A DNA stretch of 37,739 nucleotides, from positions 1-37,739 of the IMG/VR virus record IMGVR_UViG_3300031999_000094, one strand, 5' to 3'. This document shows positions 1-32,553 of this stretch, piece by piece (the first letter of the stretch is position 1; each line of letters opens with the position of its first letter). A program made the position numbers and the translations under genes. The notes beneath the pieces are model-generated. The model was not told the origin of the DNA, made no database searches, and saw nothing but the letters and a program-made list of their open reading frames with translations. This DNA comes from a virus.

Positions 1-1
1 A

Positions 2-307
2 GCATGGTGGACTGCCGGAAGCATAGAAGGGAGTGCAGCCTCTAGGCTAGTTTCGGGTATAGATGTATTTTTAAAAGTAGAGTGTTACCCTGGATTAGCA
101 AATCTTGTAGGCTCGTATAGTATGGATGGTAAAAATTGGTGTAAAAGTTATGATGGGGTATATTATGATGTGCGAATTGATAATTATCTTATTGGACATC
201 CTTATGGTATAGGGGTAGGATACGTATTTTGGGCAAACTATATGGGGGATCCTAATGAGGAATATAATATTGCTGAAGTGACTCAGTGGTTAATTGAGGA
301 TTTATAG
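2..307 (+). CDS. C-terminal part of an unrecognised protein, cut by the window edge
   Basis: The frame is open from base 2 with no stop, so the first visible Met (base 122) is probably internal; about 101 residues are seen. The segment is rich in Gly, Tyr, Val and Trp with short alternating hydrophobic runs, as in beta-sandwich domains of phage fibre or lectin-like proteins, but I see no diagnostic motif. It runs rightward and is directly followed by a strong terminator, so it is the last gene of a rightward unit entering from the left. A fibre or other virion role is inference from strand and composition only. Confidence 0.6.
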   Translation, partial: AWWTAGSIEGSAASRLVSGIDVFLKVECYPGLANLVGSYSMDGKNWCKSYDGVYYDVRIDNYLIGHPYGIGVGYVFWANYMGDPNEEYNIAEVTQWLIEDL

Positions 308-346
308 CTAAAAAATTGATAATTCTTAGATACGATAAAGGGGGAG

Positions 347-378
347 TAACTTAGGGGCACTAAAGTGCCCCTAAGTTA
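347..378 (+). terminator. Rho-independent terminator between converging units
   Basis: A perfect 14-bp inverted repeat (taacttaggggcac / gtgcccctaagtta) with a 4-base TAAA loop is followed on the + strand by a T-rich tract (TTTTTAT). It lies 39 bases after the stop of the rightward partial gene and 20 bases beyond the end of the leftward block. The T tract is only on the + strand side, so it should mainly stop rightward transcription, although the stem could also slow leftward transcripts. Confidence 0.85.
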
Positions 379-398
379 TTTTTATATCTAGGTGGGTT

Positions 399-878
399 TT
401 ATAGACGACCTGATCCTTCTATAAGTTCTTTCATACGCTCTTGTAGGTCATCAGGTTCTCCAACAAGTTTATACAATTCTTGTGCAAGACCAATTATAAT
501 ATAGGTATCTTGTAGAACTAACGTTACCTTTTCTTCGAGTACAGATAGAGCTTGCTTAAATTTTTCTTCTAGTTGGTCTACTGTTTTGCCTACAGCGTCT
601 ATACGTTGAACTAGATTTGAACATTCATGTTCTTCAGGAGAGGGGGCAAACATGGTCACTTGTGCTATATCTTTATTAGTTTCAGATTTAGACACCTCAG
701 GTTTTGATTTAACTTCGATATTTTGAGTATCTTGAAAAGCTAGTATTTTGTTTATTAATACGTCGCTTTTTTCGCTTATTACATCTCTATTAGGAACATT
801 TAGAACTTGTACAGCTCTTCTACGAAGATCGGTACGACTTAAACTTTTAAGTTCTTCTTTAGTGTATACGTCTGACAT
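399..878 (-). CDS. Hypothetical protein with SAP/HeH-like N-terminus and coiled-coil C-terminus
   Basis: I place the start at the ATG at 878 (MSDVYTKEEL, 159 residues) because a GGAG lies just upstream; a TTG four codons earlier would overlap that ribosome site. Residues about 5-45 have the helix-extended-helix pattern (KEELKSLSRTDLRRRA...) seen in SAP/HeH/Rho-N-like nucleic-acid binding modules. Residues about 95-155 have heptad-like hydrophobics (LVQRIDAVGKTVDQLEEKF) suggesting a coiled coil. It is the last gene of the leftward replication block. A DNA- or RNA-binding accessory role is inference; no enzyme motif is seen. Confidence 0.7.
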   Translation of the reverse strand: MSDVYTKEELKSLSRTDLRRRAVQVLNVPNRDVISEKSDVLINKILAFQDTQNIEVKSKPEVSKSETNKDIAQVTMFAPSPEEHECSNLVQRIDAVGKTVDQLEEKFKQALSVLEEKVTLVLQDTYIIIGLAQELYKLVGEPDDLQERMKELIEGSGRL

Positions 879-4114: not shown

Positions 4115-5437
4115 TCATTTTGTTTCTATATCTGCATAACGAATGTGAAGAAGACCGGCGTCTTTTAATATCATGTTCCATAAAACACTTTTAAATTTTG
4201 GTTCGCGTATTGCTGTTTGTAGGGCTTCTTTACTAGAGAACTTTTCTTCTCCGATATAATATACACCCCCTCCACGGTGTATAATATTTTTAACTGTACA
4301 ATAATTTATCATATTGTCCTCCATATCTACTTTTGGAGGATCAAAGTAATACCTAAATGATCCTACCTTACCTTCATGAGTTCCAGCTTTTCCCTTAGTT
4401 ATTTCGTATACTAGCTCTTTTCCTATTTTAGTTCTAGAATTTTCAGAATCTTTGGAATCTTTATAATATAACATCTCTCCTGGTCTAAGTTGAATATCTA
4501 TTAGTTTTCCATGTTTTAATGCCCAAGCCCCGCCTACTTTCCATTCTCTTTGTCTCATACTTGTTTTATATAAGTTAGCCCTTACTTGCCGAATACCAAT
4601 GATTGTTGTCTCATTCTCTTCTAGAAAAGGCCTACGGCCTTTCCACCCGCATTTACATATGTAGTTATAACTTCCTTCGTTGTGCTTTTTAAAGTTCAAA
4701 TCCATACTGAAACATGAAGGGCATCTTTTACGAGGCATTAGAGCACCTTGAATTTTCTTCATCCATAGGCTCTGGATGCCAGAGGCAGAGGCGATTTTAG
4801 GGTTGTCTCCTAAGTCCACTTCATCTTCTGAAGTGGTTAGCATGGAGTCCCAGGAGTCAATAGCCCCTATCTGATAAGCATTGGAGTCTACTAGAGTAAC
4901 TACAGCCTGTAAATTAGCTTCTGATGGTCCTCTAAGGATGTGGAATTCTCCACAACCTGTTGAGCTTTTAAGTTCTGCTATCTCTATTTTAGTAAGTGGG
5001 TTTTCTTCATAAATTTGCCTTCGGCGTTGTTCGGTATGTATCTCGTAATCAGAAAATGGTACTTTGAATCCAATTTTTCTTGCATACATTTTATCAAAAG
5101 GAAATTCCATACATAGCATAAAAATGCATGTATGATCACCGTAAAGTTTTTGAACTTGAGAGAAGTAATTGTATACTAGTAAATTTTTTCCAACTCCGTC
5201 TGGTCCCGCTATTTGTGATAATCCACCTGAAGGTAATCCGCCACCGCAATCTATATCTAAAGAGGTAATACCACTAGGTCTTCGGAGGTCGAATCGACCT
5301 TCTAATTCGGATCCCTTTTGTAGTACCACTCCGAAACTACCTAAATCTGCAATAATGGATTCAATTAAAACATCGGTATCTACTTTAGGTGGGCGTGTAA
5401 GTTTTATTTCAACTTCTTCTGCTTTCTTTTTTGCCAT
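4115..5437 (-). CDS. recA: RecA-like recombinase with zinc-ribbon insertion and unusual Walker A
   Basis: The 440-residue protein has a RecA/UvsX-type ATPase core. Residues 78-85 read GPDGVGKN where RecA has GPESSGKT. MEFPFDKMYARKIGF (110-124) matches RecA AEHALDxxYAxxLG, giving the catalytic Glu at E111. IGAIDS at 190-195 is Walker B. TTIIGIRQVR (277-286) matches the strand ending in the NQIR sensor Gln (Q284), followed by VGGAWALKHG, which parallels the GGNALKFYA segment after loop L2. Between the helix after loop 1 and that strand lies an inserted ribbon with C239-x2-C242 and C261-x-C263. Recombinases of this family coat single-stranded DNA and pair homologous strands. The gene overlaps the HU-like gene by 34 bp. 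The Asn in place of the Walker A Thr/Ser is a genuine oddity. Confidence 0.82.
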   Translation of the reverse strand: MAKKKAEEVEIKLTRPPKVDTDVLIESIIADLGSFGVVLQKGSELEGRFDLRRPSGITSLDIDCGGGLPSGGLSQIAGPDGVGKNLLVYNYFSQVQKLYGDHTCIFMLCMEFPFDKMYARKIGFKVPFSDYEIHTEQRRRQIYEENPLTKIEIAELKSSTGCGEFHILRGPSEANLQAVVTLVDSNAYQIGAIDSWDSMLTTSEDEVDLGDNPKIASASGIQSLWMKKIQGALMPRKRCPSCFSMDLNFKKHNEGSYNYICKCGWKGRRPFLEENETTIIGIRQVRANLYKTSMRQREWKVGGAWALKHGKLIDIQLRPGEMLYYKDSKDSENSRTKIGKELVYEITKGKAGTHEGKVGSFRYYFDPPKVDMEDNMINYCTVKNIIHRGGGVYYIGEEKFSSKEALQTAIREPKFKSVLWNMILKDAGLLHIRYADIETK

Positions 5438-5973
5438 TTAGGTTCCTTTTCATAGGGCTCGCTTCCAAGATCTGGATCTAGTGGTATATTAGAATCCGGG
5501 TCCATTTCTTTACTTTTAGAGCTTGCTTTTTTTTCTTTTAGTACTTTTTCGGGGTCTATTTCTACAGCATATTTATCCATTTTTCTCTCCAAAGTGCTCC
5601 TCTTTTTTCGTTCTTTTATAAGAGGAAGGGGTATAGAGTGGTAATCCTCTATACCCCAGCGTCTAGCTGAAATGTCATCTTCTCTAAAGTATTGAGCTGA
5701 TTCTTTTATATCCCATTTTAATCTACGCGAAGGGTAAAACATAACCCTTCTTTTGGGAGGGATTCGTAGAGGTTCCCCAGTTCTGGGATGCCGCCCCCAT
5801 CCACCACTATAATAGGAATTCTTAAATTCCCCAATCCCTCTAAGTAATACGTCGTGTCCTTCTAACAAAGCCGTTTTTATTATTTTTGTAAGCGTGCCAA
5901 GTAGCATACGAGTATACCGTTTTGGGCGCTTTATTTCTGTAGCAAATTTATTTACTAATTCTTGGTGATCCAT
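5404..5973 (-). CDS. HU/IHF-family DNA-bending protein with a charged C-terminal tail
   Basis: Residues 1-95 match the HU/IHF fold: a helical N-terminus (ELVNKFATEIK...), then DVLLRGIGEFKN, then the DNA-binding arm GGWGRHPRTGEPLRIPPKRR, then VMFYPSRRLK. The RxPxTGExxxIP arm and the final FxPSxxLK strand are hallmarks of the family. Beyond about residue 105 an extra, strongly charged tail is rich in Lys, Glu and Asp and probably disordered, making the protein twice the usual length of about 90. HU-like proteins bend and compact DNA and assist recombination and replication. Its 3' end overlaps the RecA-like gene. Confidence 0.88.
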   Translation of the reverse strand: MDHQELVNKFATEIKRPKRYTRMLLGTLTKIIKTALLEGHDVLLRGIGEFKNSYYSGGWGRHPRTGEPLRIPPKRRVMFYPSRRLKWDIKESAQYFREDDISARRWGIEDYHSIPLPLIKERKKRSTLERKMDKYAVEIDPEKVLKEKKASSKSKEMDPDSNIPLDPDLGSEPYEKEPKWQKRKQKKLK

Positions 5974-6089: not shown

Positions 6090-8057
6090 TTATCCTTTAG
6101 CAGAAGCCCAAGAATACCCGGTTCCCATATCTATATCTAATGGTACAAGAAGATCTTTTTTAAGTGGATGTTCCATATGTTGTTTAATAATTGGTTTAGA
6201 CTTCTCTATATTTTCTTCAGGAACTTCAAAAACTAATTCATCATGAATTTGCAATAGCATCTGTACACCCAGTGATTCTAATTGTAAGTCGTGTTCACAA
6301 TTAAGCATCGCTAGTTTAGCTACATCTGCCATGGAACCTTGAATTATAGAATTTACACTTTGGCGTTCTGCTTGAGCTAAATTAGATTTAGCAGAACCCG
6401 GTAATTCCCATCTAGTTATTGTATCTAGACGGCGCCCTATCTCATGTAACTCATGGAACCTGCGGGGTCTACCTAATATAGTTTCAACCATGGCGTGATC
6501 TAAAATATATGAATGTACATTGTAGATAAATTGCTTAACTTTAGGATAGGGTTTAAAATACAATTCTATTAGTTTTTTAGCTTCTTGAACTTCAATATCT
6601 AAAGTCTTAGCCAGTGCTCCAGGTCCTTGATCATAATTTAGACCGAAGCCCACTGCTTTACTGAACCTCCTAGTATCACACATTCTTTTTTCTAAGGGCG
6701 ATAAAATAATATTCGGGTCTTTATTTGCACCCTTTTTCTTTTTTAAGGCGGCTTCTATATCTTCGTATTTGTAATTATACATAAGACTGGCAGTTCCAGT
6801 ATGTATATCCAACCCTTTTCGTATTACGTCTATCATATTTTCGTCTTGAGAATAATGGGCTAATAGTCTCATCTCTCCCTGTTTATAATCAGAAACTATT
6901 AGTTGTTTTCCTTGATCAGAAATAAAAGCTGCTCTAATTAAAAATTGATCGTGTTCTGGATTGGGTATGTTCATTAAATTGGGATTACTGCTACTTATAC
7001 GACCAGTGACTGTTATGTGCTGATTAAGTGTAGGATGTATTCTATGGTCTTTACTTATACATTTTTTAAGCCCATCGATAAATGTATTTTTAGTGGTAGA
7101 CAAACTTCTATAACGAACCATTAATTTTGCTGGCTCAATTCCTTGTTCTGCCCATATGTTTAAACTTTCTGCATCAGTAGAAAATTGTCTATTGCCGCTT
7201 GCTCCACCTGCAGTTCTTTTTACTGGATCTAGCCTCAATTTATCGAAAAATAGTTCTCTAAGTTGCATAGGGCTTCTAGAATTGATTTCTTTACCTGCTA
7301 TCTTATTAATTTGTTTTTGAATGCTATCTAGTTCGTATTGAATTTTGGGTCCTAGGTCATCTAGATATCCCACATCTACTAGAAATCCCCTTCTACTACA
7401 GTTATAAAGAACTCGTGTGAAAGGCATCTCTATTTTTATGAAGTGATCCCATAAAGGTACGCCATCTAAACTAGTTAACTTTTTTAATTCGCCTTTTAGA
7501 AAATGAAAAACTTTAAAAGTTGCCCAAGCATCCAAAGAGGAATAAGAAATGGCACCCATAAAATCGTTTTCCATTCCTCTTAGTAAACGTTCTTGAATAG
7601 TTTCACCTCTATGACTACCCAAAAAAGCTTCTTTAAAGGATCGCATATGTAATCCAATATGATCTCTTGCTGTTTCTTTTAGTCCGTGACGTCCTTGTCT
7701 ATTTTCATCAAATAACCAATCCATAACTAAAGTATCATAACAATTTCCTGTAGGCGTGCGTACACCCGAATTCTGCAGCATATTAAGATCAAAATTTTGA
7801 TTAGTAAAATACCATTTTATATAAGGTAAATTAATCAATTCCTGGTCTAAAAGAACTAGCATTTCTGCAGAAAAGCAAAATCGGCTATTTTCATCAGGGC
7901 AAGCTGACCAAAAAAGAATATGATCAGATACTATATTTAATCCGGTTGTTTCAGTATCTAAAGCACATTCTTTGGTATCTAAAACTCTTTTTTTGAACTT
8001 ATCAAATTCTTCTGGGGTATCTACCCATGTTACAGGAGGTATATACTGTATAGCCAT
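6090..8057 (-). CDS. polA: Family A DNA polymerase with 3'-5' proofreading exonuclease
   Basis: The 655-residue protein combines an N-terminal DnaQ-like exonuclease with a Pol I palm. Exo I is DTETTG (D34, E36); Exo II is in the region TNQNFDLNML; Exo III is YSSLDAWATF. Polymerase motif A is SDYKQGEMRLLAH (about residue 388), motif B is RRFSKAVGFGLNYDQ (about 464) and motif C is IHDELVFEV (about 604). The catalytic Asp residues of motifs A and C and the motif B Arg, Lys, Phe and Tyr are kept. The usual QIE of motif A is QGE, and the Gly after the motif B Tyr is Asp. No 5'-3' exonuclease domain is present. A strong AAGGAGG lies just before the ATG. This is the phage replicative polymerase. Confidence 0.96.
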   Translation of the reverse strand: MAIQYIPPVTWVDTPEEFDKFKKRVLDTKECALDTETTGLNIVSDHILFWSACPDENSRFCFSAEMLVLLDQELINLPYIKWYFTNQNFDLNMLQNSGVRTPTGNCYDTLVMDWLFDENRQGRHGLKETARDHIGLHMRSFKEAFLGSHRGETIQERLLRGMENDFMGAISYSSLDAWATFKVFHFLKGELKKLTSLDGVPLWDHFIKIEMPFTRVLYNCSRRGFLVDVGYLDDLGPKIQYELDSIQKQINKIAGKEINSRSPMQLRELFFDKLRLDPVKRTAGGASGNRQFSTDAESLNIWAEQGIEPAKLMVRYRSLSTTKNTFIDGLKKCISKDHRIHPTLNQHITVTGRISSSNPNLMNIPNPEHDQFLIRAAFISDQGKQLIVSDYKQGEMRLLAHYSQDENMIDVIRKGLDIHTGTASLMYNYKYEDIEAALKKKKGANKDPNIILSPLEKRMCDTRRFSKAVGFGLNYDQGPGALAKTLDIEVQEAKKLIELYFKPYPKVKQFIYNVHSYILDHAMVETILGRPRRFHELHEIGRRLDTITRWELPGSAKSNLAQAERQSVNSIIQGSMADVAKLAMLNCEHDLQLESLGVQMLLQIHDELVFEVPEENIEKSKPIIKQHMEHPLKKDLLVPLDIDMGTGYSWASAKG

Positions 8058-24900: not shown

Positions 24901-27900
24901 ATGGCGCGTCTCTCTCCCGAAGAGGGGTTTAAGCTTCTCGAAGACGGGGTAACTAGCACAATTAGTAAGCTTTTTCCGATCATTGGGAAAAAAAATATAA
25001 TGGAATTACAAGATATTCAAGTTAAAGATGACTTGGATATTGATGATATTCGTTCTCAAAAAACAGCTAAATTAAATGGAAGAAGTTGGTCAGTACCTGT
25101 AGAAGCTACTATTGCTTTAAAAGATAAAGAAACAGGTAATATAATCAATCAACAAAAGATTCGTTTAATGAGCTTGCCTAAAATAACAAGACGGTATTCT
25201 CATATTGTTGATGGTAATGAATATCAAATAGATAACCAATGGCAATTAAAATCAGGTGTATATGCTCGAATTAAAGATAATGGAGAGTTGGAATCTAGAT
25301 TTAATTTAGCTAAAGGAAAGGGATTTAATTTAGAATTTGATCCTAAAACTCGTAAATTTACTATGGGCTACGGTTCTTCAAATATTCCTTTGAAACCACT
25401 CTTAATGGAATTAGGAATACCCACTACAGAAATAGAGACTAAATGGGGAAAAGAAATAACTGATGCAAACCACTTTAGTTCTTCTTTAGCATTGGATAAA
25501 TTCTATAAAGCAGCAACCGGAAATAAAGCAGAAGATACTACCCAAGCTAAACAATATCTTATGGATACACTTGAAGCTACCGTGCTTAGTCCAGAAACAA
25601 CAAGGATTACTTTAGGTAAGGAATATAAAAAAGTAACCGGCCAATCGTTATTAGATGCGGCTACTAAACTTTTACATATTTCTCAAGGAAAGGTACCTCC
25701 AGATACAAGAGACGCTTTAATGTTTAAAAATCTTCGTTCTACAGAAGATTTTATAACTGATCGTCTTCAGAAACACTCTAAAGAGATACTTCGTAAATTA
25801 CAGAATGGCGTAGATAGGAAAATAGAAGTTAGAGATATTATAGGTCCTGATGTTTTCCAAAAACCTATTCGTACTATGTTCTATACTTCGCTATCTAATT
25901 TACCAGAGCAAACAAATCCATTAGAGATGATTTCTGGTCAAATGAAAACAACAATTACAGGAGAAGGGGGTATTAAAAGTGAACATCAAATTACAGAAGA
26001 GGCGAAACTAATAGACCCATCTCATCTTGGGTTTTTAGATGCTATTCATACTAGTGAAGGAGCTACTACAGGAGTTACTCTTCATCTTCCAATTGGGGTT
26101 CAAAAAAAGGGTCAAGATGTATACATAAAAATGTATAATCTTAAAACTGAAAAAATTGAAGATGTAAATCCTGAAATGGTTATGAAATCCAAAGTGGTTC
26201 TTCCTGATCAAGTTCAGTGGAAAAACGGAAAACCTATACCTATCCATAATAAAATAAAAATAAGTGCTGTAGGTAATGACATCGTAGAAGGTTCAATTAA
26301 AGACGCTCATTATGTTATGCGTGATCCTATTCAAATGTTTTCTATGGCGTCTAATCTTATTCCATTCATGGGTGCAGACCATCCTCTTAGAAGCACTATG
26401 GCTGGTCGTCATATGGAACAGGCAATATCTCTAGCTCATAGAGAAGCCCCCTTAGTACAGAGTGTGGCAGGAAATAAAACGTTTTCTGAATTAATGGGTA
26501 CTTTCGCAGGGCACGTATCTAAAATTGATGGTGAAGTAGTAAATATTGGTAAAGATTTTATATTAGTAAAGGATGATCAAGGGAAAAAAATAGAACATCA
26601 ACTCTATGATCATTTTCCGCTTAATTCTGATAAAGCTTTTTTACATTCTACCCCATTAGTAAAAATAGGTGACAAAGTTGTAAAGGGCCAAGCTATAGCG
26701 GATTCTAATTTTACAAAGAATGGTGTATTAGCATTAGGTACTAACCTTTATGTCGGTTACTTACCTTATAAAGGATACAATTTTGATGATGGTGTTGTAA
26801 TTTCAGAAGCTGCAGCAAAGAAATTATCTAGTGAGCATTTATATAGAAAAACAATAGAAACTGATTCGTCTCTTATTTTAAATAAGGGTAAATTTCAGGC
26901 TTATGTTCCCCATATTTTAACTCGAGAACAATCTGCAAAATTAGATGACGACGGTGTTATAAAACTGGGTACTACTGTTGTACCAGGGGATACTATTATT
27001 GCAGCTCTTAGAGAACAACAAAATCGAGCAGAAGATAAAGAATTAGCTAAATTACATAAGTCTTTAGTTCGACCTTATCGAAATGTTAGTGAACGTTGGG
27101 ATGCTGATTACCCAGGAGTAGTAACAGAAGTTATAAAGCATGGAAAAGAAACTACTGTTCATATAAAAACATTAGAACCTATGGAGATAGGGGATAAGTT
27201 ATCTGGAACTCATGGTAATAAAGGGATCGTATGTAAAATATTGACTGATGCAGAAATGCCGCATACTAAAGGCGGTAAAGTATTAGATGTCTTAATGAAT
27301 GCTACTACAATTCCGGGTAGAGTAAATTTAGGACAGGTACTAGAAACAGCGGCTGGAAAGATTGCTGAAAAAACAGGTAAACCTTTTCTAATTAAGAATT
27401 TTGATCCCTCTATTCCAGATTTACATGCTTATATAACTGAAGAACTTAAGAAGCATGGGATATCTGATAAAGAAGAGGTTATAGACCCCATTACTGGAAA
27501 AGTAATGGGAAATGTTTTAGTGGGGCCTCAAAATATTATAAAACTTAAACATCAAGTGGATAAGAAATTGACATATCGAGCTGGAGGGCCCGGATATGTT
27601 TATGATATGAACTTAATTCCTAAACGTGGAACTCATCAAGGGGGGCAAGCACTAGATACTCTCGGACTTTATTCGATGCTTGCACATGGAGCAAAAGAAA
27701 ATTTAAGAGAGTTTCAAACAATTCGATCTGATTCTCAGCAATCAGATGCTTTCTGGACTGCACTACAATCTGGGGAACCTTTACCAGCACCTCGACCTAC
27801 TTTCGCTTATCAAAAGTTTATAAGTTACCTTAATGCTATGGGGGTTAATGCTAAGAAAGAGGGCAATAATCTTCAGCTTATTCCGTTTACCGATAAGAAT

Positions 27901-30900
27901 GTTCTGGAAATGAGTAACGGGGTTATAAAGGATCCAGGACGCATGGTACGAGCTAAGGATTTAAAAGAAGAAAAGGACGGCCTCTTCGATATTAAAACAA
28001 CTGGGGGGATTAGTGGCACAAAATGGTCACATATGAATCTTCCTTATGCTATGCCTAATCCCCTCTTTGAAAAATCTATTCAGTGTCTTACTGGTTTAAG
28101 TACAGTCGATTACGAAAATATAATGTCTGGAAAGTCTTCAATAAATCCCCATATTAGTGGTTTAAGTTCAGATACCGATAAGTATTTAACTTCTGGTAAG
28201 GCTATAGACCACTTACTTGGAAATATAGATATCTCTAAAGAATTAGAAGCGGCTAAAAAACAGATAGAAAAACCCGGTTTAAAAGGAAATCGTTTAGATC
28301 AAATTAATAAAAAGATTAGATATTTAGCTGCTTTAACTAATGCTGGGTTATCAGCAAAAGATGCATATATGATGAAGTATATTCCAGTACTCCCTCCTAT
28401 AATGCGTCCTTTATCTCATAGACCTAATGGGGATATTAATTTTGATGATCTAAATCAAATGTATAAGGGCATTGGATTATCGATAAGTAGATTAAATTCC
28501 CTTTCTCCACTTATGCCTGAAAGTGAGAAACACGAGATTAAAGCTGAAATATATGATGGTCTAAGGTCTCTAATAGGGCTCGGTGGAACAATGAATAGGG
28601 ATTTTAGGGGGGTCTTGGATATCATTCAAGGTAAAATGCCCGTTAGAGAAGGTGCAAAAGGAACTGGGGAAAAGACGGGCTCTCCTAAAGCAGGTTATTT
28701 TCAAAGTAAACTTGTTAACCGCCGGCAAGATTTATCTATGCGGTCAACAATTGTTCCAGAACCGTCAATGGGTCTAGATGAGGTAGGTATCCCACGGCAA
28801 GCGGCATTAGAAATCTATAAGCCCTTTATTATTCGTGAACTAAGAAACTTAACGGGCGTATCCCCATTAGAAGCACAAAAGCAAGTTAAAGAAGGTGGGG
28901 GTTTAGTTCAAAAAGCTCTTGAACGAGTAATAGAAAATAGACCTCTACTTTTGAAAAGAGATCCAGTACTTCATAAGTACGGTATACAAGCATTTAAACC
29001 AAGAATAGTATACGGTAAAGCTGTTCAAATTCATCCCTTGGTTACTGCTGGCTTTGGAGCTGATTTCGATGGTAACTGTATCATAAATAGCTCCAAAGTT
29101 TATATTAAATATGGCATAAGAGACTCACACAAGGAGAAACTTATGCCGTTTACTACGAAATCAAAATTAACTGTTAATGACGGAATTATTGTAGAATTAG
29201 AAATCGGAGATTTTCCAAGAGAAGATAAGCCATATAAAAAAGATAAAAATGGGGCGGATATTTATAGAGTTCCTGAAGGTATTCAAGTTTTATCTTATGA
29301 TCATCTTGCGGGAGAATCTACGTATCAAGAGGTTACTGAATTAACAATAGAAGAAAATTGTGAGACAGTAGAGATTTTTTATTCTAATGATTATGAAGTA
29401 ACTGCGTCTACAAATGAGAGTTTATGTATTTATAACCATGAAACCGGACAATTACGAAAAGCTAAACCTTCTGAATCTATCGGTGCTTTAAGTCCTGTTG
29501 TTTCACCACCTGAGTATATTGATGGACTATTTAATAAACAAGTAGGCTGGGCAATAGGTTTATTTGCTTCTGATGGATTTTTACTTGATTACCCTACGAT
29601 AGGAATATGCAAAGTCAATCAGAATATACGAGACTATTTTTATCTTGCTCTACAAAATATGGGGGGCGTCTCTGGTAGATATACATATTCTCGTGAAAAG
29701 AGGTGCCCTAAGGATTTATCTGACAAATCTATTAAAGACCATATAACCGTTTCGACTAAGTTATATGAATTCTTTTCCCAATGTTATGACCCTTCGTATA
29801 TCAATTATTTAAAAGGGGGGGATAGTAACATAATGCCTGATGATTATTCTTTTAGATCGTGCCTTTTAAAACGGTTACCAGATAATATGGGTAACTATTC
29901 TAAAGAAGCGCTATTAGGAGTTTTGTCAGGTTTATTGTGCGGAGATGGATCGTTATCTTTATCTCATGCCAAGACTAGACCGCAACTTATGGCTTCTTTT
30001 AATACTAGTTCTAAAGGACTAAAAGAAGATATAAAACAATTGTGTTTTTTACTTGGTATACGTTGTAGTGTTTCTGAAACTCCTCCAGCACCTAATAGAG
30101 TACAAAAAAGAGTCAACTATACTATTAATTTTAGTACTGTGGATATTTACAGTTTACTTCCAAAGTTACTTATTATTGGCTATGACGAATTTATGTCACA
30201 GTATACGAATTATCCCCCAACTAAAGATGATCGAGATGTAGTTCCTATTCCGTTCAGTATAATAGACAAATTTTCTAGTAAATTACATCTTATGTATAAT
30301 GATCACCCTACTGTTGTTAGGTCTCTTGCTAATAGAAAAAGTAAAGAAAAAGCTGTTGGATTTAGAGTATCTAGAGATACCGCATTTTTAATGTTGCCGT
30401 ATCTTAATTTGAATAATGAAATAGACGCTTATTGGAAAAATTTAGTTCTATCCCCCATTAAATGGGTTACAATTCAAAAACTAGGAAAAGTAACTAGACA
30501 AACCGTTTCGGATCTAGTTATTCCTACCACAAAAGTTTTTTCTGTTAATAATGGGCTTATAGTTTGGGATACCATGTCTGCATTTGTCCCTATATCACCA
30601 GAGGCGGTAGTAGAAGCTCGTCATATGTACCCTTCCAGTAATATTTTTAGCCCCTCATCTGGGACAGTTATGTATACTCCCACCAATGAGGCTCAACTAG
30701 GTTTATATGGAATGGCTAAAATAGGCCTTAAAACTAATAAGGCTTTTTCTACCTTAGCCGATATGGAGTCTGCTTTACGAAAAGGGGAAATTGATTATAC
30801 ACATCAAATTAAAGTAGGTGGCGTGTCCTCTACAGCAGGACGTTTTTTAATAGCAAAAGCTTTTCCCGAATCTATGAGAGAAGAGATAATAAAAAGTGAC

Positions 30901-32553
30901 GAGCCCCTCAATAAAAATAGGCAAATAGATCTTCTGACTCAAATAGGTAAAAATCATAAAAAAGAATACGGGGATGTTGCTAATAAGTTAAAAGACCTGG
31001 GAAATGCGTGGTCTACTTCTACAGGTTTTAGTCTTGGAATGGAAGATATAAAACCCGATAAAGTTATGAGAGATCAATTATTGGCTAAAGCAGATTTAGC
31101 AGTTTCAGAACTTAAGGGAAAAGATAAGGATCTTAAAGCTATTCAAATTTATGCCAAAGTTACTCAAGAATTAAATAGGCATATAGAGGGTATGTCAGAA
31201 TCTAAGAGTAATCTTATTACAATGTCTAGAGCAGGTATAAAACCCAGTACAGAGATTGTAAGGCAAATAAAGATAGCTCCAATGCTTATGATTAATGCTA
31301 AAGGTGAAACAATAGCTACTCCAGTTAGAAGATCCTTTTCTGAAGGTTTAGATTTTGCAGATTATTGGACATCCATGTCGGGGGCTAGAAAGGGGGTTAT
31401 TCAAAAGGTACAGCAAGTTCGAGAACCTGGATATATGTCTAAAATGGTAATGAACTCTGTTATGAATAATCTGATTGTGGATAATGACTGTGGAACTGAC
31501 CGAGGAATAACATTATCAATTGATGAAAAGGACATTTTAGATAGGTATTTAGCTGCCGATGTTAAAATAGGTAAAGATACAATTAAAGCAGGTACTTTAA
31601 TTACATCAGAAGTTAAGAATACTTTACGAAATAATAAAGTTGGTAAGATTATGGTTCGTTCTCCATTACGTTGTAACCACGGTCCTGGTGTATGCCAAAA
31701 ATGCCATGGATTAAGTGAGAATGGTGTATTACCTGATATTGGGACTAATGTAGGAGTACTAGCAGGGCAAGCTTTAGGAGAAAGGTCTACTCAATTAGCG
31801 ATGCGTGGCTTCCATTCAGGGGGGTCTGCGTCTTCTAAAGAAGTATTAGCTGATGAATTTGATCGAGTTAAAGCCCTTTTAATGTTTCCTCAAATTCTTC
31901 CTGGTTCTGCTTCATTAAGTACAGTTTCTGGTAAGATAGAGAAAATGGATAAAGACCCTGCAGGTGGACATAACGTATTCATTGGAGGAAAGCGTCACTA
32001 CGTTCCTAATAACTTAGGAATACCACAACAAAATGGGGTATCTTTAAAAATAGGTGATGAAATTAAAAAGGGGTCACCTATTTCTAATGGCCCTATTAAT
32101 CCTCATGAAATGTTACCTCTTACAGGTATGGAACCAGTACAAGGGTATTTAGCTAATGCCTTACACGAACTGTATGGTCATACAGGTGTTCGTCGTAGGA
32201 ATACTGAAATTGTTATAAAAGCTTTAACGAATCTTACAAAAATAGACGACCCTGGTGATCATAAAGGCTTTATTCGAGGTGATTTTGCACCGCTATCTCA
32301 TGTTACCAGTTTTAATAAAAAACTTCCTAAAGATGGTAGGCCGATAGTACATCAACCTATTTTAAAGGGGGTTAATGTCCTACCTTTAGATATGCAAGAA
32401 GATTGGATGGCTAGATTAAATCACCAGAATCTTTCCAAAACTATTATAGAAGCTGCTCAACAAGGGTGGACTTCTAAACTACATGGCGCCCACCCAATTC
32501 CACCTGTAGTGTACGGAGCGGAAATGGGCAAAGGCAAACCTGGAGAATATTAA
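24901..32553 (+). CDS. rpoBC: Fused beta-beta' DNA-directed RNA polymerase interrupted by an intein
   Basis: One 2550-codon frame covers both large subunits. Beta signatures: ITRRYSHIVDGNEYQIDNQ (N-terminal), GYNFDDGVVISE (about 623), GDKLSGTHGNKGIVCKI (about 763, both catalytic-site Lys kept) and HQGGQALDTLGLYSML (about 913); the beta part ends near residue 1000. Beta' signatures: KYIPVLPPIMRPL, NRRQDLSMRSTIVPEPSMGL, GIQAFKPRIVYGKAVQIHPL, the catalytic ADFDG(N/D) loop split by an intein (1393-1890), CNHGPGVCQKCHG with C2197 (second zinc site), and the trigger loop GERSTQLAMRGFHSGG (about 2292-2307). After intein removal about 2052 residues remain, roughly 700 fewer than E. coli beta plus beta'. 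The N-terminal beta' zinc domain is absent. TTGAGGAGA precedes the start. No sigma or alpha-like gene is in the window. Confidence 0.93.
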   Translation: MARLSPEEGFKLLEDGVTSTISKLFPIIGKKNIMELQDIQVKDDLDIDDIRSQKTAKLNGRSWSVPVEATIALKDKETGNIINQQKIRLMSLPKITRRYSHIVDGNEYQIDNQWQLKSGVYARIKDNGELESRFNLAKGKGFNLEFDPKTRKFTMGYGSSNIPLKPLLMELGIPTTEIETKWGKEITDANHFSSSLALDKFYKAATGNKAEDTTQAKQYLMDTLEATVLSPETTRITLGKEYKKVTGQSLLDAATKLLHISQGKVPPDTRDALMFKNLRSTEDFITDRLQKHSKEILRKLQNGVDRKIEVRDIIGPDVFQKPIRTMFYTSLSNLPEQTNPLEMISGQMKTTITGEGGIKSEHQITEEAKLIDPSHLGFLDAIHTSEGATTGVTLHLPIGVQKKGQDVYIKMYNLKTEKIEDVNPEMVMKSKVVLPDQVQWKNGKPIPIHNKIKISAVGNDIVEGSIKDAHYVMRDPIQMFSMASNLIPFMGADHPLRSTMAGRHMEQAISLAHREAPLVQSVAGNKTFSELMGTFAGHVSKIDGEVVNIGKDFILVKDDQGKKIEHQLYDHFPLNSDKAFLHSTPLVKIGDKVVKGQAIADSNFTKNGVLALGTNLYVGYLPYKGYNFDDGVVISEAAAKKLSSEHLYRKTIETDSSLILNKGKFQAYVPHILTREQSAKLDDDGVIKLGTTVVPGDTIIAALREQQNRAEDKELAKLHKSLVRPYRNVSERWDADYPGVVTEVIKHGKETTVHIKTLEPMEIGDKLSGTHGNKGIVCKILTDAEMPHTKGGKVLDVLMNATTIPGRVNLGQVLETAAGKIAEKTGKPFLIKNFDPSIPDLHAYITEELKKHGISDKEEVIDPITGKVMGNVLVGPQNIIKLKHQVDKKLTYRAGGPGYVYDMNLIPKRGTHQGGQALDTLGLYSMLAHGAKENLREFQTIRSDSQQSDAFWTALQSGEPLPAPRPTFAYQKFISYLNAMGVNAKKEGNNLQLIPFTDKNVLEMSNGVIKDPGRMVRAKDLKEEKDGLFDIKTTGGISGTKWSHMNLPYAMPNPLFEKSIQCLTGLSTVDYENIMSGKSSINPHISGLSSDTDKYLTSGKAIDHLLGNIDISKELEAAKKQIEKPGLKGNRLDQINKKIRYLAALTNAGLSAKDAYMMKYIPVLPPIMRPLSHRPNGDINFDDLNQMYKGIGLSISRLNSLSPLMPESEKHEIKAEIYDGLRSLIGLGGTMNRDFRGVLDIIQGKMPVREGAKGTGEKTGSPKAGYFQSKLVNRRQDLSMRSTIVPEPSMGLDEVGIPRQAALEIYKPFIIRELRNLTGVSPLEAQKQVKEGGGLVQKALERVIENRPLLLKRDPVLHKYGIQAFKPRIVYGKAVQIHPLVTAGFGADFDGNCIINSSKVYIKYGIRDSHKEKLMPFTTKSKLTVNDGIIVELEIGDFPREDKPYKKDKNGADIYRVPEGIQVLSYDHLAGESTYQEVTELTIEENCETVEIFYSNDYEVTASTNESLCIYNHETGQLRKAKPSESIGALSPVVSPPEYIDGLFNKQVGWAIGLFASDGFLLDYPTIGICKVNQNIRDYFYLALQNMGGVSGRYTYSREKRCPKDLSDKSIKDHITVSTKLYEFFSQCYDPSYINYLKGGDSNIMPDDYSFRSCLLKRLPDNMGNYSKEALLGVLSGLLCGDGSLSLSHAKTRPQLMASFNTSSKGLKEDIKQLCFLLGIRCSVSETPPAPNRVQKRVNYTINFSTVDIYSLLPKLLIIGYDEFMSQYTNYPPTKDDRDVVPIPFSIIDKFSSKLHLMYNDHPTVVRSLANRKSKEKAVGFRVSRDTAFLMLPYLNLNNEIDAYWKNLVLSPIKWVTIQKLGKVTRQTVSDLVIPTTKVFSVNNGLIVWDTMSAFVPISPEAVVEARHMYPSSNIFSPSSGTVMYTPTNEAQLGLYGMAKIGLKTNKAFSTLADMESALRKGEIDYTHQIKVGGVSSTAGRFLIAKAFPESMREEIIKSDEPLNKNRQIDLLTQIGKNHKKEYGDVANKLKDLGNAWSTSTGFSLGMEDIKPDKVMRDQLLAKADLAVSELKGKDKDLKAIQIYAKVTQELNRHIEGMSESKSNLITMSRAGIKPSTEIVRQIKIAPMLMINAKGETIATPVRRSFSEGLDFADYWTSMSGARKGVIQKVQQVREPGYMSKMVMNSVMNNLIVDNDCGTDRGITLSIDEKDILDRYLAADVKIGKDTIKAGTLITSEVKNTLRNNKVGKIMVRSPLRCNHGPGVCQKCHGLSENGVLPDIGTNVGVLAGQALGERSTQLAMRGFHSGGSASSKEVLADEFDRVKALLMFPQILPGSASLSTVSGKIEKMDKDPAGGHNVFIGGKRHYVPNNLGIPQQNGVSLKIGDEIKKGSPISNGPINPHEMLPLTGMEPVQGYLANALHELYGHTGVRRRNTEIVIKALTNLTKIDDPGDHKGFIRGDFAPLSHVTSFNKKLPKDGRPIVHQPILKGVNVLPLDMQEDWMARLNHQNLSKTIIEAAQQGWTSKLHGAHPIPPVVYGAEMGKGKPGEY
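29077..30570 (+). other. Large intein in the beta' metal-binding loop, with intact LAGLIDADG motifs but altered splicing residues
   Basis: Residues 1393-1890 (498) separate GADFDGN from TMSAFVPISPEA, where cellular beta' reads NADFDGDxMAVH. The element starts with Cys1393 (CIINSSKVYIKYG). A block B-like segment YEVTASTNESLCIY has Glu where His is expected. It ends in KVFSVNNGLIVWD, matching the common NGLIVHN ending but with Trp-Asp instead of His-Asn, followed by Thr1891. Two LAGLIDADG motifs are present, AIGLFASDG (1551-1559) and LSGLLCGDG (about 1675-1683), each keeping the acidic residue, so the homing endonuclease looks active. The exact boundaries are uncertain by one residue because of an Asn/Asp exchange at the ends. 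Confidence 0.85.

Follow-up and report, generated by a model that had tools for sequence, protein, structure and literature searches.

The window analyzed here, a stretch of 37,739 nucleotides from a virus record (IMGVR_UViG_3300031999_000094), encodes a fused beta-beta' RNA polymerase whose catalytic loop is divided by an intein with swapped residues at its ends: Asn precedes the intein at the place of the third catalytic Asp, and the intein itself ends in Asp at the position where class 1 inteins usually have Asn. Multisubunit RNA polymerases use the third Asp of this loop, NADFDGD, as a metal ligand. It is highly likely, in our view, that excision of the intein and ligation of the polymerase pieces still take place, and the working enzyme probably has Asp, not Asn, as its third metal ligand. 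As to where this Asp comes from, we tentatively favor a residue exchange, in which the piece from Asn(-1) to the penultimate Trp/Tyr would be excised and the last Asp of the intein would stay behind, giving ADFDGD-T as the product. Such an exchange, if it indeed occurs, would be a new kind of protein splicing: the codon for the third catalytic Asp of the host would lie at the distal end of the intein, and the -1 residue would belong to the mobile element.

The polymerase is encoded on the + strand, as are all the window features below, by an open reading frame (24901..32553; 2550 amino acids including the intein) with no interruption. An insert of 498 amino acids divides the catalytic loop as ADFDG-N / CIINSSKV...NNGLIVWD / TMSAF. 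On the N-extein side, ADFDG (29059..29073), the start of the loop with the first two catalytic Asp residues, is followed by Asn1392 (AAC, 29074..29076), which is the canonical -1 residue and, with a shifted boundary, would become the first residue of the excised piece. In canonical numbering, the intein with its predicted HINT fold extends from Cys1 (TGT, 29077-29079) to Asp498 (29077..30570); Trp497-Asp498 (TGG GAT, 30565..30570; Trp1889-Asp1890 of the whole protein) replaces the canonical His-Asn end, and Thr (ACC, 30571..30573), the canonical +1 nucleophile, opens the C-extein TMSAF. Block B is STNESL (29407..29424), with Glu114 (29416-29418) replacing the catalytic His at B:10; in block F, Asp479 (F:4, 30511..30513) is retained as in class 1 inteins and is invariant in two intein alignments, and Lys486 (30532..30534) replaces the common His at F:13. 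The loop furthermore has Gly for the Asn of NADFDGD (codon 29056-29058) and thus reads GADFDGN in the precursor. An earlier note on this DNA had read the loop as ADFDGN, the end of the element as VWD followed by TMSAF, and the block B His as Glu, and these readings are correct, including AAC at 29074-29076 and GAT at 30568-30570; also, its arithmetic that a boundary one residue earlier on both sides would restore ADFDGD-T holds.

The insertion point, which the earlier note had proposed to fix by alignment with intein-free relatives, is indeed placed beside the third Asp by such alignments. The intein-free relatives are up to 79% identical in the 184 amino acids ahead of the site, and 11 of the 12 distinct ones read ADFDGD-[TA]M, with the remaining one (L023; loci are denoted by L and a number) reading ADSDGD-VL. 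Asp was hence rightly expected in a polymerase without the intein: it occupies the third position in all 12 distinct relatives (18/18 intein-free rows among the polymerase loci compared), including L002 and L004, the near sisters of the window (79% flank identity). When the viral collection was searched for ADFDGN[TAIV]M, only two stretches were hit, neither of them in a polymerase, and no intein-free polymerase with Asn was found.

The swap itself is real, but is not peculiar to this gene, as the earlier note had treated it; it belongs to a clade of mobile inteins (type I). The search of viral contigs for ADFDGNC gave 25 stretches, nine in RNA polymerases and 16 elsewhere, and all of the nine run into intein sequence, representing seven distinct inteins, one of which (L041) is without its C-end. 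A profile search returned 11 loci, all at this site, with L055, L058, and L062 as new ones, and when bacterial and archaeal contigs were scanned, one more type I intein, L104, emerged in a contig of a Thermoplasmata metagenome-assembled genome (MAG). The ten distinct complete type I inteins (the window, L027, L031, L032, L040, L047, L055, L058, L062, and L104) all have Asn at -1, Cys1, S-x-N-E-[ST]-L as block B, a [WY]-D end, and Thr at +1; Asn at -1 is found in 11/11 N-ends when L041, whose N-end is alike, is included. At F:13, Lys is present in nine of the ten and Gln in L055. Identity to the window intein is 25-49% in eight members. Random decay is therefore unlikely to have produced the swap. 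The inteins of the window, L027, and L040 had no match in 50,697 phage records, and ADFDG[DN]C was found in none of the 292 archaeal genomes searched. As a side observation, the Thermoplasmata contig (PWHR01000060.1) carries a phage-like fused polymerase with the type I intein, and the same MAG has a second beta'/A' gene as a strong match; the contig is probably that of a phage binned with the MAG, or otherwise of a virus of that archaeon.

Gene decay, or a mistake in sequencing or assembly, has a negligible chance of explaining the swapped residues and was rejected. A second contig of the same phage (dataset 3300032046) differs by one mismatch in 12552 bases and encodes the same protein across the whole intein and the N junction, and a base error at both junction codons is therefore unlikely; also, the L027 phage is represented by three contigs (L027, L054, and L056; 99.98-100% identical) with the same residues, which recur in the ten divergent complete inteins. 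The ratio of nonsynonymous to synonymous substitution rates (dN/dS) is 0.07-0.14 in five pairs of type II inteins (see below); in the one type I pair tried, the window and L027, dS was saturated. The window polymerase, furthermore, does not look decayed in its sequence: of the 471 columns in which 13 intein-free rows agree without exception, it departs at 23, and the intein-free rows themselves, each left out in turn, depart at 0-68 of 471-539 columns, where the near copies L002/L003 and L007/L022 bring their own rows down to 0-1.

Type I forms a single clade on the intein tree (support 100/99). On a tree of the polymerase flanks from which the disputed residue had been removed, nonetheless, the genes with type I, with type II, and with no intein are intermixed, and type I needs seven changes, at least four of which are forced by well-supported branches (L017, L041, and L093 were left out of this tree, and L062 and L055 are on long branches). 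Since type I is single on the one tree and scattered on the other, Asn(-1) travels among the polymerases with the intein and not with the host. This would be expected if homing co-converts the flank and also if Asn is part of the excised piece. Also, the two mini-inteins, L032 (290 amino acids; 6789-7658 on the - strand) and L062 (266 amino acids; 4878-5675), align without the endonuclease blocks and yet retain Asn(-1), Glu(B:10), and the terminal Asp; splicing is therefore probably still under selection in type I.

Inteins of a second type (type II: L008, L009, L013, L070, L078, L084, L086, L088, L089, and L095) are also inserted here; they combine Asp(-1) with Ser1 or Cys1, a block B His, and a terminal Asp. 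They are alike to type I in the insertion point, the terminal Asp, and the related splicing and endonuclease domains and are distinguished by Asp(-1), by His in block B (11/12), and by Ser1 or Cys1. The description of the ends as swapped, therefore, stands for type I and is not exact for the site as a whole; with Asp on both sides of the type II inteins, either register yields Asp in the product. Another search gave 18 stretches, four of which were in polymerases (L070 and L078 with inteins, L074 and L077 intein-free with Cys at +1); a further one gave 14 loci, 13 of them at this site and one (L096) not; and yet another gave seven matches, two of which (L098 and L101) come from the phages of L055 and L058 and five of which are not polymerases. 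L093 has two tandem inteins at the site, ending FFYD and VVND, and a third, ordinary intein in its beta part. L017 (Asp at -1, Gln first, no C-end), L010 (N-end only), and L090 (C-end only) enter no complete count. Several of these loci are worth a remark of their own. In L093 (3713-6613 plus the upstream beta part), the second tandem intein begins directly after the Asp of the first. In L017 (6490 onward), Gln-Gln-Cys follows ADFDGD, so that there is apparently no nucleophile at residue 1, and the contig ends before the C-end. L078 ends in Gln-Asp (2258-2266) and L093 in Asn-Asp (6605-6613), where the shifted boundary would leave ordinary C-terminal Gln and Asn, respectively. L007 (intein-free, Ala at +1) and its relative L008 (type II, Cys at +1) come from the same dataset, 3300028653.

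Among the 22 complete inteins at this site, in which those of L009 and L086 are 99% identical, the terminal residue is Asp without exception (22/22), and the usual Asn of class 1 is absent. The -1 residue is Asn in ten and Asp in 12 and nothing else, and the penultimate residue is Trp in 15, Tyr in five, Gln in one, and Asn in one but never His. As controls, inteins elsewhere end in Asn in all of the 21 readable cases, namely 16/16 archaeal ones (30 loci, 19 reaching the last position of the model, 16 counted with L141, L145, and L159 left out) and 5/5 at other places in these phages (L117, L131, L124, L122, and the beta intein of L093; L127 is not in the count); these controls were picked by a Pfam model, mostly where its last position was reached, which may favor Asn, and some are near copies (L139 and L140). 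Because the controls in the same phages and in archaea end in Asn, the terminal Asp belongs to this site or lineage and not to these phages generally.

In these inteins, the last residue never departs from Asp, and -1 holds either Asn or Asp; in the intein-bearing genes, the position that always has the Asp required by the polymerase is therefore the downstream one. This is what a residue exchange would explain, together with the drift of the -1 residue and with the absence of any Asp loss from a well-kept polymerase; the exchange would also give an easy path for the -1 residue to drift from Asp to Asn. As for its chemistry, which we infer, the Gly preceding Asn would pass its acyl group to Cys1 or Thr(+1); cleavage of the Trp/Tyr-Asp bond would be assisted by the side chain of that Asp and by the rebuilt site with Glu and Lys; and the Asp amine thereby released would attack the Gly (thio)ester to close ADFDGD-T. 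A codon comparison at both junctions did not tell which Asp is that of the host. A second beta' active-site domain was searched for with Pfam, and none was found in seven of the eight records (60-188 kb; four type I and three type II phages), which may be fragments; in the eighth (that of L062, 236 kb), Pfam missed even the known polymerase gene.

The -1 residue nonetheless does not vary alone. Asn(-1) is paired with Glu at B:10 in 10/10 cases and Asp(-1) with His in 11/12 and with Asn in 1/12 (L093a, the one with Asn, not His, at B:10). Fisher's test on the Glu split gives p = 1.5e-6, which is not a true probability, given that the sequences share ancestry and that type I forms a single clade; this table and that of the +1 residues below were compiled by hand from the sequence rows. 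This covariation, as well as the restriction of -1 to Asn or Asp, would fit another explanation, in which the register is ordinary and Asn(-1) is converted to Asp in the precursor. Either Glu at B:10, where His normally faces the amide of residue 1, could drive a succinimide at Asn(-1)-Cys1, or the terminal Asp could receive the amide of Asn(-1), so that the polymerase would be left with Asp and the intein would end in an Asn able to cyclize normally. A conversion would also agree with the canonical fold and with the +1 nucleophile; we nevertheless hold it to be unlikely, for an Asp-to-Asn mutation should have been lethal unless a deamidation step was already in place, the type II inteins have no Asn to give and leave the constant final Asp unexplained, and we know of no precedent. 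By analogy, a nitrilase-like Glu-Lys-Cys site acting on Asn(-1) was also considered; it is weakened by L055, which has Gln for Lys.

The intein was also modeled with its flanks (518 amino acids) by AlphaFold2, and the model has a predicted local distance difference test score (pLDDT) of 78.6 and a predicted template modeling score (pTM) of 0.76, with residues 1-7, 25-44, and 510-518 below 50 in pLDDT. The model matches solved inteins (best Foldseek E 1.6e-18), which occupy most of the 50 structural-match rows with Z of 15-25. Residues 11..508 of the model, i.e., C1 to D498, align to 1..454 of PI-SceI and PI-PfuI and also to 1..172 of the RadA intein and 1..440 of the RecA splicing domain; these ranges give the ends only, and in part of the 50 rows (for example 4o1s_A, 8ubs_A, 2jmz, and 1zde) the match is displaced by a few residues or the numbering includes flanks. 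The predicted fold is thus that of HINT domains in the canonical register, with C1 on the first and D498 on the last residue in most rows. In the type II model, the N-end is poor (residues 1-40, block pLDDT 34-57), and the C-end alone supports the canonical register.

At the +1 position, Cys/Ser/Thr is found in 21/21 final junctions (22/22 if Ser1 of the second tandem intein of L093 counts as +1 of the first) versus 5/12 intein-free genes (p = 2e-4), from which L074 and L077 were excluded because they had been selected for Cys. With this contrast, and that between Ala in L007 and Cys in L008, the sequences suggest that the +1 nucleophile matters for splicing. The predicted register and the constant +1 nucleophile therefore speak against a simple shift of the boundary as raised in the earlier note; the lack of any intein-free polymerase with Asn and the invariance of the final Asp (22/22) speak for an Asp in the product.

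Several points, indeed, weigh against the residue exchange. In most rows, C1 and D498 of the model coincide with the canonical termini of inteins; Cys1, the block F Asp, and the +1 nucleophile are retained as in ordinary class 1 inteins; and the +1 nucleophile is needed by ordinary ligation to Thr and not by the exchange. The exchange also needs acyl shifts via larger rings, for which we know of no precedent in inteins. The constant final Asp could reflect shared descent in one lineage, the -1 residue, being only Asp or Asn, is not simply free, and an Asn(-1) moving with the intein would also be expected from co-conversion of the flank. Furthermore, the Asn of NADFDGD is retained in 12/12 distinct intein-free loops versus 12/23 intein-bearing ones (3/11 of type I and 9/12 of the others) and is hence lost in 11/23 versus 0/12, which would fit a generally altered active site. 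Inteins with a terminal Asp are moreover said to splice by the class 1 mechanism in the available part of one review (PMC4031507).

A rival explanation is an ordinary register in which Asn is simply kept: Cys1 would form the thioester with Asn(-1), the chain would pass to Thr(+1), the terminal Asp would cyclize slowly, and the polymerase would work with Asp-Asp-Asn as its metal ligands. The canonical register, the conservation of Cys1 and the block F Asp, the +1 nucleophile (21/21), the further loop changes in the intein-bearing genes, and the placement of Asp-ending inteins under class 1 in the accessible parts of reviews (PMC4031507 and PMC7664689) would all be consistent with this. We regard it as rather doubtful even so, since all multisubunit polymerases are described as having an invariant YNADFDGD (PMC4982682), neither of the two intein-free ADFDGN matches is a polymerase, and several separate polymerase lineages would have to tolerate Asn; in addition, the rest of the window polymerase is well preserved, and no reason is given why 22/22 inteins end in Asp. 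Sequence evidence cannot separate the residue exchange, which we tentatively favor, from the retention of Asn or from its conversion.

In terms of classification, the insert is an intein in its predicted HINT fold and in lying, in frame, at a site where the host protein is conserved, and it is of class 1 in having Cys1 (10/10 type I) and Cys/Ser/Thr at +1; the usual, though not absolute, features of that class, namely Thr/Ser..His in block B (S.NE in 10/10 type I) and the penultimate His, are absent. Class 2 has Ala1 with Ser at G:6 and class 3 has Cys at F:4, according to the available part of PMC4031507; Cys1 and Trp/Tyr exclude the former (KlbA type), and Asp in place of Cys at F:4 in 19/19 alignment rows excludes the latter. 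A bacterial intein-like domain is excluded by Thr+1. Class 1 LAGLIDADG inteins such as PI-SceI, PI-PfuI, and TliVMA share with type I the HINT register (Z 18-24 for these three), Cys1, the block F Asp, Cys/Ser/Thr at +1, and the endonuclease; type I differs from them in Glu for the block B His, Lys for the F:13 His, Trp/Tyr for the penultimate His, the Asp end, and Asn at -1. The loss of the usual assisting histidines would fit cleavage without ligation, in which the intein cuts at one end or at both and the polymerase is assembled from two pieces, with Asp-Thr-Met as the possible start of the C-terminal piece; jumbo phages, for instance, have split beta' genes. This is quite improbable, given that the retained +1 nucleophile and Cys1 would be superfluous for cleavage and that the break would fall inside the metal-binding loop.

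As for the surroundings of the intein, Rpb2_6, Rpb1_2, Rpb1_3, Rpb1_5, and Rpb2_3 of Pfam exceed the cut-off in the window polymerase, and Rpb1_1 and Rpb2_2 are below it; the rpoB/rpoC models also match, with scores under their equivalog cut-offs. A UvsX-like recombinase, a DNA polymerase, a primase, a DnaB-like helicase, and another helicase are encoded beside the polymerase, and the window is therefore phage DNA. The LAGLIDADG homing endonuclease domain of the intein (29911..30111; Pfam LAGLIDADG_3) scores 25.1 bits (cut-off 22.5) in a scan restricted to the insert and short flanks and 20.9 bits, below the cut-off, in the whole protein. Intein_splicing of Pfam matches 17 of the 19 aligned members at E up to 0.1, the window's own copy not being among them. 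An RNA intron as the cause of the insert was rejected: in the Rfam scan of 28000-31500, no family reached its cut-off, the single match listed having 15 bits against a cut-off of 50, and no known intron family therefore explains the insert.

Amitai reportedly described inteins with a C-terminal Gln or Asp in 2004. In the available part of PMC4031507, inteins ending in Asp, Gln, or Glu are assigned to the class 1 route with another cyclization, and His at B:10, His at G:6, F:4, and F:13 are listed as assisting residues; PMC7664689, again in part, notes that inteins tolerate many active-site combinations. The known inteins with a terminal Asp or Gln are thus like the present ones in having Asp for Asn, and they are single variants as far as that part of PMC4031507 covers them; here, in contrast, a whole clade also alters block B, block F, and a -1 residue that is catalytic in the host. 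Polymerase inteins of eukaryotes are in second-largest subunits at another site (PMC1635734), and inteins of crAss-like and Jug phages are reported with other host genes named (PMC7886860 and PMC12363816), all in the portions of these papers available. Among the open-licence literature matches listed, none reports an intein inserted at this point or one with swapped ends of this kind. The helicase intein of the Pectobacterium phage phiTE is distantly similar to the type II intein of L070 (E = 8e-3; one of four weak matches covering at least 80% of L070 among GenBank phages) and is set apart by an ordinary Cys1, block B His, and HN/C end and by its different host protein.

In conclusion, ten complete divergent inteins encode Asn at the metal-ligand position of a motif described as invariant. 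The mini-inteins of 290 and 266 amino acids make the question directly testable with small constructs, the junction peptides of interest being GADFDGNTMSAF and GADFDGDTMSAF. A splicing site built on Glu and Lys in place of His would widen the repertoire of the HINT domain. Each of the likelier explanations, namely a residue exchange, a conversion of Asn, and a polymerase with Asn as a metal ligand, would be new, and the exchange or the conversion, if true, would represent a categorically new splicing chemistry.

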